Assembly: GCF_000519185.1 (NCBI RefSeq)
Contig: NZ_JAFA01000003.1
Coordinates: forward strand, 254,583 to 318,582
DNA from: Paraburkholderia nodosa DSM 21604
Lineage (GTDB): Bacteria; Pseudomonadota; Gammaproteobacteria; Burkholderiales; Burkholderiaceae
Direction of reading: 5' to 3'
DNA: 64,000 bases
Every line of letters begins with the position of its first letter. Positions within the stretch are counted from its first letter, which is position 1. Under the pieces are notes generated by a model. That model ran no database searches, was not told where the DNA came from, and was given only the letters and a program-made list of their open reading frames with translations. Made by a program: the position numbers and the translations under genes. This document shows, in pieces, positions 42,661 through 45,632 of the stretch.

Positions 42661-43323
42661 TCAGCGCTGCACGATCAACGTCACGCGCCGGTTCAGCGCG
42701 CGGCTCGCGGGGTCGTTGCCTGCCACGAGCGGGAAGTTGTCGGCGCGGCCAATCGCGGCGAGCCGGTGAGGTTCGATGCCGCGCTCGACCAGATAGCGCA
42801 CCACCGCGCCCGCGCGCGCCGAAGAGAGCTCCCAGTTCGACGCGAATTTCGCGTTCGAGATCGGCGTGCTGTCGGTATGCCCTTCCACGAGGATATTGCC
42901 CGCCGGCGCCGCGCGCAGCACCTCGGCGATACGGCCCAGCACGCCAAGCGATTCGGGCAGCAGCGTGGCATCGCCCGCGTTGAACAGGATCTTCGCGTTG
43001 ATGCCGATCTCCACGCCGCGCGCCGCCGGCACGATCGTGATTTCGCCGCGCTCGCGCAGCGTTTCGAGCGCGGCGAGCAGCGCCTGATCGACGGCGGGCA
43101 TTCTCCCGACCACTGCCGCCGTGCTCGTGCGCTGGGCCGCCGAGCGTATTTCGGATTCCTTATGCTTTGCGAGCTGCATCGCATAGAGCGCGAGGAACAG
43201 CACCATCAGCGTCGTGATCAGGTCCGCGTAGGAAAGGAGCCAACGGCCGGAACTCGATTCGCCGCCTTCGTCCTCGTCGTAATCGAATTGGGCCGTGAGC
43301 GGCAGGTCTTTATCGGAAGGCAT
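42661..43323 (-). CDS. MotB-type stator protein with OmpA peptidoglycan-binding domain
   Basis: A 220-residue MotB/OmpA protein. A short acidic N-terminus leads to one membrane segment (residues 28-50, WLLSYADLITTLMVLFLALYAM) with D34 in the place of the proton-carrying aspartate of MotB (SYADL). The OmpA-like domain occupies about 105-218 with EGHTDSTPISNAKFA, LSSARAGAVV and SRALNRRV, which bind peptidoglycan. It is last in a three-gene operon, six bases after the MotA-like gene. It resembles MotD of dual-stator systems, but no flagellar gene is near. Confidence 0.88.
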   Translation of the reverse strand: MPSDKDLPLTAQFDYDEDEGGESSSGRWLLSYADLITTLMVLFLALYAMQLAKHKESEIRSAAQRTSTAAVVGRMPAVDQALLAALETLRERGEITIVPAARGVEIGINAKILFNAGDATLLPESLGVLGRIAEVLRAAPAGNILVEGHTDSTPISNAKFASNWELSSARAGAVVRYLVERGIEPHRLAAIGRADNFPLVAGNDPASRALNRRVTLIVQR

Positions 43324-43329
43324 GGGCGG

Positions 43330-44133
43330 TCAACTCGCGCGTGTCGTGTCCAGCGCCCACACGTTCGCTTCGCCCTGCAAACCGCCGCTCTTGCCGCCCA
43401 CCTCGCCAGCGAGGCGCGTGGCGATCGTGTGGGGCGACTCCTTGCGCGAAATGGCAAGCAGGCCGTCGAGATAGAGCTTGCGCAGGCGCAGTTCGCTTTC
43501 GATATGCGCACGCATCTTGCCATATAGCGGCAGAAAAACGAGGTTCGCAAAAGCAAGGCCGTAAAGCGTGGCGACGAAGGCCACGGCGATGCCGGGCCCG
43601 AGTTCGGCAGGCTCGATCAGATGCCCCGTGACCTGAATCAGGCCGAGCACCGAGCCGAGAATGCCGAACGTGGGCGCATAGCCACCCGCCTGCTGCCACA
43701 CACGCGCCGCCGCCATGTGCTTGCGCCCGGAGGCTTCGAGTTCGCGCTGGAGCGCATCTTCGAGCACGGCGGTCGAAACACCGCTCGCAAGCAGTTCGAG
43801 CCCGCGCCGCGCGAACGGATGAATGCCTTGCAGATCCATCGATTCGAAGGCTAGCAGACCGTTGAGCTTGGCCTGATCGCCCCACTCCAGCACGGCGGCC
43901 AGGCTCGCTTCGTCTACGCGCGGCGCTTTCACGAAGGCCGTGCGCAAATGCTTCACGGCGTCGAAGAAACGCGCCCACGTGTTCTGGATCATCACGGCGC
44001 CGAGCGTGCCGCCCAGCACGATGGCCAGCGCCTCGGGCTGGAGCAGCGTGACGAAATGGCCGCCTTCGAGCGAGAAGCCCGCGACGACAGCGAGCGCGCC
44101 AATCGCGATACCGATCAGGGTAAGCAGATCCAT
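43330..44133 (-). CDS. MotA-type stator protein
   Basis: A 267-residue MotA/TolQ/ExbB-family protein with four membrane segments: residues 2-20, 33-50, about 151-171 and 182-202. The conserved proline and channel-lining parts are seen in GGYAPTFGILGSVLGLIQV and GPGIAVAFVATLYGLAFAN. The cytosolic loop between segments 2 and 3 (about residues 51-150) is where MotA normally meets FliG. It would pair with the MotB-like protein to form a proton-driven unit. The upstream gene encodes a protein with a FliG-like end. Confidence 0.9.
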   Translation of the reverse strand: MDLLTLIGIAIGALAVVAGFSLEGGHFVTLLQPEALAIVLGGTLGAVMIQNTWARFFDAVKHLRTAFVKAPRVDEASLAAVLEWGDQAKLNGLLAFESMDLQGIHPFARRGLELLASGVSTAVLEDALQRELEASGRKHMAAARVWQQAGGYAPTFGILGSVLGLIQVTGHLIEPAELGPGIAVAFVATLYGLAFANLVFLPLYGKMRAHIESELRLRKLYLDGLLAISRKESPHTIATRLAGEVGGKSGGLQGEANVWALDTTRAS

Positions 44134-44147
44134 GCGTGTCTCCCAAC

Positions 44148-45371
44148 TCAGCGATCCGCCTGGCGCGCGCCAGGCGTCTTGAGTGCACGCACCGCTTCAA
44201 GCAGGCGCTGTTCGATGTCCTCGACTTCCACGGGATCGATCTTGATGTCGCGGCGCATGACCCACGACACTTCGTTCTTGCGTGCGTCCGCCATCACCGA
44301 GAGCAGGCGCTCGGATACGGCCGGATCCTCGATCGAGGCGAGCAGTTTCGCGAGATCGTAGGTATCGAGCGCGCTCACGGCTTCGAACAGCGTGCGCTGA
44401 TCGACGAACAACAGATCGTCGAGCGCCTTGAGTTCGCCGGAGCCGCGGTTCGTGCGCTTCGAGAAATACGCCACGCCCTTTTGCTCGACGAAGTTGAGCA
44501 CCTTCGACTTGCGGAACGCAAAGACCTCGTCGGCGATTTCGGCGTGCGAGAGCTTGTTGAGAATGACCTTGCGCTCCACGCCGATCAGCGCTTCGAGATC
44601 GCCCAGTTCGATCAGTTCGAGTTCGCTGTTGATCGACACATCGAGATCGCTGTCCGCGACCTGCGTCGCGCGCTCCACGATGCGCACGGGGTCGAACGTC
44701 ACCACCTGGCGGCCCAATGCGCCTTCTGCCGCTGCCGCGTTATTGGCGAGGTGCGTGGCCTGCCCGCTTTGCATCGCGACGAGATTGAGCTTTTCCATGC
44801 GCCGGAGCATGGCCATCACATGCGGACGCGAATGGCCGGCCACGGCACGGCATTTCTGCACGACGTCGGCGAGCGGCACGCTCACTTCGGCACCGCTCGC
44901 GCCGTGCCGCGACCAGGTATCGCTGCTTTCGGCGCGATCGCCCGCGCCTGCGATCAGCGCGAGCACGTGCGCGTACGACAGTACGCCCGGCATGAAGTCG
45001 GCATGGGTGTAGGTGGCGAGCAGATCGTCCTTCGCCTTGACGCGCCGCGTGAGCGTGCGCACCACGTGGCGCAGCATCGGCGTGACGCGTTCGAGTTCCT
45101 CTTCGATGAGGCTCGCCGGCACGACGGTCAGCTGACAAAAGCTGAGCGCCTTCGCCGTGTTCGGTCGCGGTTCCGCGCCGAGCAGCGCGGTCTCGCCGAA
45201 AAATTCGCCGCGTCCGAGCGTGGCCATCACGACTTTCTTGTCGTCGCAGCGGGTGGAGATTTCGACCTTGCCGTCGGCGATCACGAAGATCAATCGCTCG
45301 CCTGCAAAGCCTTCCGAATAAATGATCTCGCCCGGCGCCGCCGTACGCGACCATGTTTGACTGCGATTCAA
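44148..45371 (-). CDS. Cyclic-nucleotide-binding protein with FliG-like C-terminal domain
   Basis: A 407-residue protein that I cannot match to one named family. Residues 10-105 form a cyclic-nucleotide-binding domain, with the phosphate-binding cassette GRGEFFGETALLGAEPRP (53-70) near its end. Residues 163-203 (VPLADVVQKCRAVAGHSRPH, then MAMLRRMEKLNLV) look like a Crp-type winged helix. Residues 315-398 follow the FliG C-terminal domain: DDLLFVDQRTLFEAVSALDTYDL, then ERLLSVMADARKNEV and DIEQRLLEAVRALK. The FliG acidic pair reads DQ (324-325) instead of DD. It is the first gene of the operon with MotA- and MotB-like proteins (gaps of 14 and 6 bases). A ligand-controlled stator partner is inferred. 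Confidence 0.72.
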   Translation of the reverse strand: MNRSQTWSRTAAPGEIIYSEGFAGERLIFVIADGKVEISTRCDDKKVVMATLGRGEFFGETALLGAEPRPNTAKALSFCQLTVVPASLIEEELERVTPMLRHVVRTLTRRVKAKDDLLATYTHADFMPGVLSYAHVLALIAGAGDRAESSDTWSRHGASGAEVSVPLADVVQKCRAVAGHSRPHVMAMLRRMEKLNLVAMQSGQATHLANNAAAAEGALGRQVVTFDPVRIVERATQVADSDLDVSINSELELIELGDLEALIGVERKVILNKLSHAEIADEVFAFRKSKVLNFVEQKGVAYFSKRTNRGSGELKALDDLLFVDQRTLFEAVSALDTYDLAKLLASIEDPAVSERLLSVMADARKNEVSWVMRRDIKIDPVEVEDIEQRLLEAVRALKTPGARQADR

Positions 45372-45632
45372 GTTATATCCCCGGAAAACGATTCCATCGC
45401 CCGCATTTGTCTGACTATCTTATGCGTGTGCGAAGTGAGTGCTATGAGCCGCGTTTACGGCGTTTCCCAAGAGGTTCTTGAATCAGCTTGCATAGATTGC
45501 ACGCGTGGAAAGCGTGCCGAAAGCCCTTCGCGCAAGCGTGTGCGCCGATGTGTCATGTGCGCTTTACAAGCGCAAACGATTGCTTGCGCGAGAAGTGCTG
45601 CAAATGGGCCATGAATTGCGTGGGATAAATGA
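45372..45632. other. Promoter region of the CNB-MotA-MotB operon
   Basis: No acceptable gene in about 260 bases. A 7-base inverted repeat TGCGCTT/AAGCGCA (45558-45574) is the only symmetric element. The start side near 45372-45430 is AT-richer and probably holds the operon promoter. Confidence 0.35.

Follow-up and report, generated by a model that had tools for sequence, protein, structure and literature searches.

A candidate third flagellar stator in Paraburkholderia nodosa, encoded with its own putative cyclic-nucleotide-sensing regulator

Second messengers act on flagellar stators via PilZ proteins. The Pseudomonas aeruginosa protein FlgZ, which responds to cyclic diguanylate (c-di-GMP), binds MotC, and the flgZ gene of P. 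putida is FliA-dependent; YcgR acts on MotA, FliG and/or FliM to change motility (PMC6093933). Here we describe a three-gene operon in a 64,000-nucleotide stretch of the Paraburkholderia nodosa DSM 21604 genome (contig NZ_JAFA01000003.1, positions 254,583 to 318,582; hereafter "the window"). We read it, with a probability of roughly 0.55, as a late flagellar operon that encodes a third flagellar stator of the MotC/MotD type together with its own cyclic-nucleotide-sensing regulator, the latter carrying a predicted FliG-like stator-docking domain. Such an operon would likely let a cell signal decide when the extra stator drives the flagellum. FlgZ and YcgR offer the nearest known pattern, namely a second-messenger protein acting on the motor, which is the role proposed here for the product of gene 1. 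They combine a PilZ domain with c-di-GMP, whereas gene 1 combines a cyclic-nucleotide domain, nearest to the chains of cGMP- and cAMP-dependent protein kinases (PKG/PKA), with a predicted winged helix and a FliG-like domain, and shares an operon with the genes of its own stator. The features of the locus are as follows.

44148..45371, minus strand: gene 1 (407 amino acids, TTG start); based on open reading frame (ORF), Pfam, alignment and structure models
44166..44435, minus strand: FliG_C-like domain of gene 1, residues 313-402
43330..44133, minus strand: gene 2 (267 amino acids), MotA-type stator subunit, MotC-like; based on Pfam, NCBIfam and alignment
42661..43323, minus strand: gene 3 (220 amino acids), MotB-type stator subunit; based on Pfam, NCBIfam and alignment
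45454..45481, minus strand: sigma-28 (FliA)-type promoter box TCAAG-N15-GCCGTAAA, starting 110 bases ahead of the gene 1 start codon
45572..45580, minus strand: conserved box GCAAACG[AT]T (read on the plus strand as GCAAACGAT), inside the inverted repeat GCAA-ACGA-TTGC

The initial annotation of this DNA had placed three genes on the minus strand from 45371 down to 42661, separated by gaps of 14 and 6 bases, and had taken the last two for a MotA-type protein and a MotB-type protein with an intact proton aspartate and a peptidoglycan-binding domain. Coordinates, strand and lengths check out, and so do the assignments. Gene 2 matches MotA_ExbB (E-value = 2.1e-24) and MotA_N (3e-11) in Pfam, and passes the MotC-type cut-off in NCBIfam (NF006583/PRK09109, 248.9 bits vs. 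237). Gene 3 matches OmpA (E-value = 9.6e-19; the peptidoglycan-binding domain at residues 113-212) and MotB_plug (6.2e-11), and its D34 is invariant in 16/16 aligned sequences. The best NCBIfam match of gene 3 among all models is MotD (PRK09038), at 173.1 bits below the cut-off of 283. In gene 2 the PomA pair R88/E96 is represented by K89, a conservative change, and E97, in all 16 aligned sequences. Since these torque-face charges are kept, the stator could serve the flagellar rotor.

The genome of the strain (G000) contains two further motAB pairs, both above the NCBIfam MotA and MotB cut-offs and located on other contigs (C48, locus L098; C2, locus L099). One of them adjoins a cheA-like gene, named by eye from its sequence. 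The single FliG is likewise encoded on a contig other than that of the operon. Genes 2 and 3 therefore constitute a third stator set, and the idea that they are simply the normal motor genes of the strain is ruled out by the two other pairs. MotCD of Pseudomonas is similarly a further stator set beside MotAB. The present set differs from it in being a third one, in being led by a gene for a protein with cyclic-nucleotide and FliG_C-like domains, and in the score of gene 3 relative to the MotD cut-off.

The N-terminal part of gene 1 (residues 10-94) is a cNMP_binding domain (Pfam E-value = 9.7e-18), as had been proposed from the sequence. Its phosphate-binding cassette has E60 and R69, and the residues of the cyclic nucleotide pocket (G59, E60, P68, R69, T72, A73) are all invariant in 21/21 aligned sequences. 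The nearest solved sequences are the cGMP- and cAMP-dependent kinase chains, and five nucleotide cyclase domain matches are found in the same genome. Such a pocket would be expected to accept cAMP or cGMP but not c-di-GMP. AlphaFold2 models place a Crp-like winged helix at residues about 124-245, of which the recognition-helix stretch is highly conserved in the alignment. The middle part (about 246-312) is helical and of low confidence in both models; it may or may not resemble the ARM part of FliG, on which the structure matches bear little. A cyclic-nucleotide domain followed by a putative winged helix within about 400 residues would be an arrangement shared with Crp/Fnr factors and with Bdellovibrio Bd2879 (PDB 9sfa). 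Bd2879 differs by a further winged helix and by substitutions at its ligand residues (PMC12750041); gene 1 has the FliG-like domain and an intact E/R pair instead.

The C-terminal domain of gene 1 (about 313-402) is well predicted in two AlphaFold2 models, of which the best structural matches are FliG. In the Pfam protein scan, residues 317-401 match FliG_C with an E-value of 1.3e-4 and 22.6 bits, slightly below the curated cut-off (23.3); the identical stretch scores 24.8 bits, above the cut-off, in a six-frame genome search. Across 117 sampled genomes of the genus, FliG_C matches with E-value ≤ 1e-3 are either of FliG scale (90 bits or more) or belong to a group of 12 weak matches (23.6-29.9 bits). 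By their coordinates all 12 weak matches sit at the C-terminal end of gene 1, which argues that the FliG likeness goes beyond chance. In the remaining 48 of the 60 carriers, the gene 1 copy does not reach an E-value of 1e-3 in this search. A hmmsearch of PDB with the family alignment A5 puts FliG on top, but at an E-value of 0.14. The FliG C-terminal pattern noticed initially is thus recovered by Pfam and by the models, and we take this domain to have a predicted FliG_C fold, that of the stator-contacting domain of FliG. For the rest of the rotor protein Pfam shows no counterpart: a scan of all 407 residues at E-value ≤ 1 returned cNMP_binding, FliG_C and two insignificant matches, with neither FliG_N nor FliG_M, and no PilZ domain. 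The acidic pair of the FliG torque helix is also missing from gene 1.

Upstream of gene 1 we identified a box resembling the E. coli sigma-28 consensus, given as TAAAGTTT-n11-GCCGATAA in PMC2859248. The pattern [TC][ACT]AAG-N14-16-GNCG[AT][AT][AT]A occurs at -108 to -138 in 51 of 54 otherwise diverged upstream regions of the operon (all but L027, L040 and L052); Markov controls average 0.035 of 54. A strict form of the box has seven matches in the whole P. nodosa genome (9.63 Mb). Five of them precede this operon, the canonical motA, whose start lies 59 bases beyond the end of the box, and three genes carrying an MCP signalling domain (chemoreceptors). At the other two, the nearest ORF that was read gave no Pfam match. 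From its sequence context, the operon looks like a member of the sigma-28 (FliA)-type late flagellar regulon.

Counting from the search listing matches with E-values below 1e-100, gene 1 is present in 60 of the 117 genomes, about half, and is split in two of them (G008 and G116). A looser count of 104/117 takes in other cyclic-nucleotide-domain proteins. At family level, gene 1 matches turn up in 72 of the 299 genomes and in 5 of the 25 genera, the divergent protein of G161 and the fragments of G370 included. A scan of genome contigs, with P. sacchari and P. unamae among the carriers, gave 59 loci, 53 with a complete gene 1; of the remaining six (L060, L062-L065, L067), five are cut off by contig ends and one is a degraded remnant. 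In all 53 complete loci a MotA-type and then a MotB-type gene lie directly downstream of gene 1. The flanking ORFs of 15 representatives are common only within two clades, five representatives sharing none, and the replicon varies: one relative has the operon on a chromosome 2, others on records of large plasmids. With its flanks changing and its composition constant, the trio behaves as a unit of inheritance. The co-occurrence in relatives, together with the Pfam domains and models, bears out the initial view of a FliG-like end fused to a ligand-binding domain and encoded with its own stator. A nucleotide-gated stator, also suggested at that stage, is still the best reading; the pair is not the normal motor set and always follows gene 1 in complete loci.

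The distribution also ties the operon to flagellated genomes. FliG_N is present in 229 of the 299 family genomes, and gene 1 matches are found in 71/229 FliG-positive vs. 1/70 FliG-negative genomes (Fisher p = 1.3e-8, a statistic that ignores phylogeny), so that 71 of 72 carriers have FliG. A survey for the operon in non-flagellated strains thus yields a single FliG-less carrier, G008 (L077, 2349-5166). There genes 1 and 3 are broken into several frames and gene 2 is still open, which we interpret as decay of the operon alongside loss of the flagellum.

We propose the following mechanism. The promoter would be read by sigma-28 after completion of the hook-basal body, and the MotA-type and peptidoglycan-anchored MotB-type proteins would form a working ion-driven stator able to serve the flagellar rotor. 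The gene 1 protein would form a Crp-like dimer binding cyclic AMP (cAMP) or cyclic GMP (cGMP), and ligand binding would alter whether its FliG-like domains occupy the cytoplasmic ring of the stator. Occupied by a rotor mimic instead of the rotor, the stator would be kept from the motor as by a clutch, and could join once the mimic is released. Probably the conserved box upstream of the promoter is bound by the winged helix, through which the gene 1 protein would adjust the amount of stator. A clutch set by ligand, docked in either the ligand-bound or the ligand-free state, is the most economical reading of the mechanism.

Several observations weigh against this proposal. The FliG_C scores of gene 1 hover around the Pfam cut-off; among 21 aligned members, 7 have no FliG_C match at E-value ≤ 0.01, and of eight divergent relatives scanned, one scores above the cut-off, five weakly and two not at all at E-value ≤ 0.1. 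A profile-profile comparison of the C-terminal part with five Burkholderiaceae FliGs, a very narrow set of close sequences, gave a score of 17.2, not above column-shuffled controls (best of 30, 21.7). Gene 1 lacks the acidic pair with which FliG contacts MotA (D288/D289). At the corresponding positions 369-372, nearly all of the 21 members have S, W, V and M, at any register of 81-83, the register against the FliG torque helix being ambiguous by one to two positions; R364, E367 and R373 of this region are invariant in the family. Docking on MotA can therefore not be inferred from the charge pattern of FliG itself. As for the promoter, the pattern was widened in three steps after the sequences had been read (36/53, then 46/54, then 51/54), and its spacer is 15 in 47/51 regions vs. 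14 in the E. coli consensus and the strain's own motA; a spacer of 15 is found also before one chemoreceptor gene (L106). The pattern written backward has five matches in the P. nodosa genome vs. seven forward, and none of the ORF starts beside them resembles a motility gene on inspection by eye, not with Pfam. A broader pattern has, in two Burkholderia genomes, eight matches forward (this operon twice, chemoreceptors twice and four others) and also eight backward, so that only two of the six further matches precede chemoreceptors. With backward matches nearly as many, the promoter case rests on which genes follow the box. The association of gene 1 with FliG is partly phylogenetic, since the FliG-negative genomes are mostly small and belong to other genera, and the frame-split gene 1 of G116 lies in a FliG-bearing genome. 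Finally, a divergent relative (L093), the one exception seen to the linkage with a stator, has no adjoining stator genes in the FliG-bearing genome G161; a gene 1-type protein can therefore exist apart from a stator.

The second conserved box bears on a tentative alternative, in which gene 1 is mainly a DNA-binding protein of the Crp family, held at the membrane by idle stators through its FliG-like domain. Recruitment of the stators by the rotor would free it and change transcription, so that the cell would sense load or surface contact, with the cyclic nucleotide setting the threshold. The modelled winged helix and its conserved recognition helix fit such a role. In 48 of 54 upstream regions the box GCAAACG[AT]T stands above the sigma-28-type box, between -154 and -243, and it is largely specific to the operon: the 53 loci together (687 kb) contain only 59 copies, those of the operon included. 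Elsewhere among the places bearing the sigma-28-type box it appears only at L117, where no ORF is assigned, and at motA, 1.3 kb off; no other gene with an assigned ORF has a copy less than 400 bases from its sigma-28-type box. It could be a site for a Crp/Fnr-type regulator, for which gene 1 would be the obvious candidate. FNR-type sites are N4-spaced palindromes, and upstream of 12/53 loci the box is, or gives way to, a perfect palindrome of this spacing (CGCAA-N4-TTGCG). However, the box could serve another regulator, DNA binding by gene 1 is putative, and the window contains a shorter version in place of the perfect palindrome. In a fuller form of the idea, which we regard as doubtful, idle stators would hold the factor by its FliG-like tail, the rotor would displace it, and the cAMP-loaded form would report motor engagement; the freed factor would report load or surface contact to the genome, its own operon first.

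Two other explanations were considered. It is improbable that gene 1 acts on the rotor side, joining the flagellar C-ring to alter switching or torque rather than sequestering a stator. The FliG_C-like fold and flagellar-type promoter would suit such an adaptor, but Pfam finds no FliG_N or FliG_M in gene 1, and gene 1 is inherited with a stator pair. The initial annotation had also considered a motor-like envelope device. In the form examined here, the stator would turn a small gene 1 assembly unrelated to the flagellum. The neighbourhood would allow it: the two adjacent ORFs, the two neighbours scanned with Pfam, encode an AsnC-type regulator and a FAD-binding protein, neither of them flagellar, and the operon occupies differing neighbourhoods and replicons among relatives. 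A promoter box common to motA and chemoreceptor genes and the near-constant company of FliG argue the other way, as does the lack of FliG_N and FliG_M domains. We consider this device highly improbable and reject it on the promoter box and the FliG co-occurrence, which moves the interpretation from the envelope to the flagellar motor, where the ligand-controlled third stator is our preferred reading.

If this reading is correct, a dedicated receptor of the cAMP/cGMP type that bears a rotor mimic and is co-inherited with a stator of its own would represent a solution unlike the PilZ route, and such a domain fusion would surprise motor specialists. Many Burkholderiaceae would then allow tests of how stators are selected, how surfaces are sensed and how motor state is coupled to transcription. 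A function would be given to genes currently annotated as Crp/Fnr regulator or cyclic nucleotide-binding protein, flagellar motor protein, and OmpA family protein. Were gene 1 instead a transcription factor held by its tail, it would provide a direct mechanical-to-transcriptional link in the flagellar motor. The operon is described in none of the literature that we found in open PMC text, searched through listings and the beginnings of abstracts.

A MotAB-like pair outside the usual motor is known also from the anti-phage stator ZorA/ZorB of Zorya, and ZorB models match gene 3 (best E-value = 2.7e-20). Gene 2 differs in having no match among PADLOC families at E-value ≤ 1, ZorA included, and a Zorya-like defence system was rejected on this ground. 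The sole PADLOC match of gene 1 is the AbiEi model, over residues 276-360 (window 44292-44546; E-value = 9.3e-6), possibly by chance or through a contaminated model.

L093 (3929-5083) belongs to a divergent branch of proteins with cyclic-nucleotide and FliG_C-like domains (P0121-P0170, down to 29% identity to L093), and adjoins an ORF that by eye resembles a sigma-54-type activator. Searches with A5 of the order (399 genomes) and the phylum (398 genomes) matched only G000 and G127, in draws thin in carrier genera. The relative P0170 is from an uncultured Azohydromonas, and the family therefore reaches slightly beyond this result.

Other loci exhibit rearrangements. In P. silvatlantica (L067, 6001-6432) a second-copy remnant has the start of gene 1 running straight into pieces of gene 3. 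In Paraburkholderia sp. CNPSo 3272, contig ends cut gene 1 at residue 151 or 267 in all four pieces (L062, L063, L064, L065), as if the gene were interrupted by a repeated element. On the megaplasmid of Paraburkholderia sp. PGU19 (L126, 1901-3700), a mobilizable plasmid of 853 kb, the operon is immediately preceded by a methyl-accepting chemotaxis gene.

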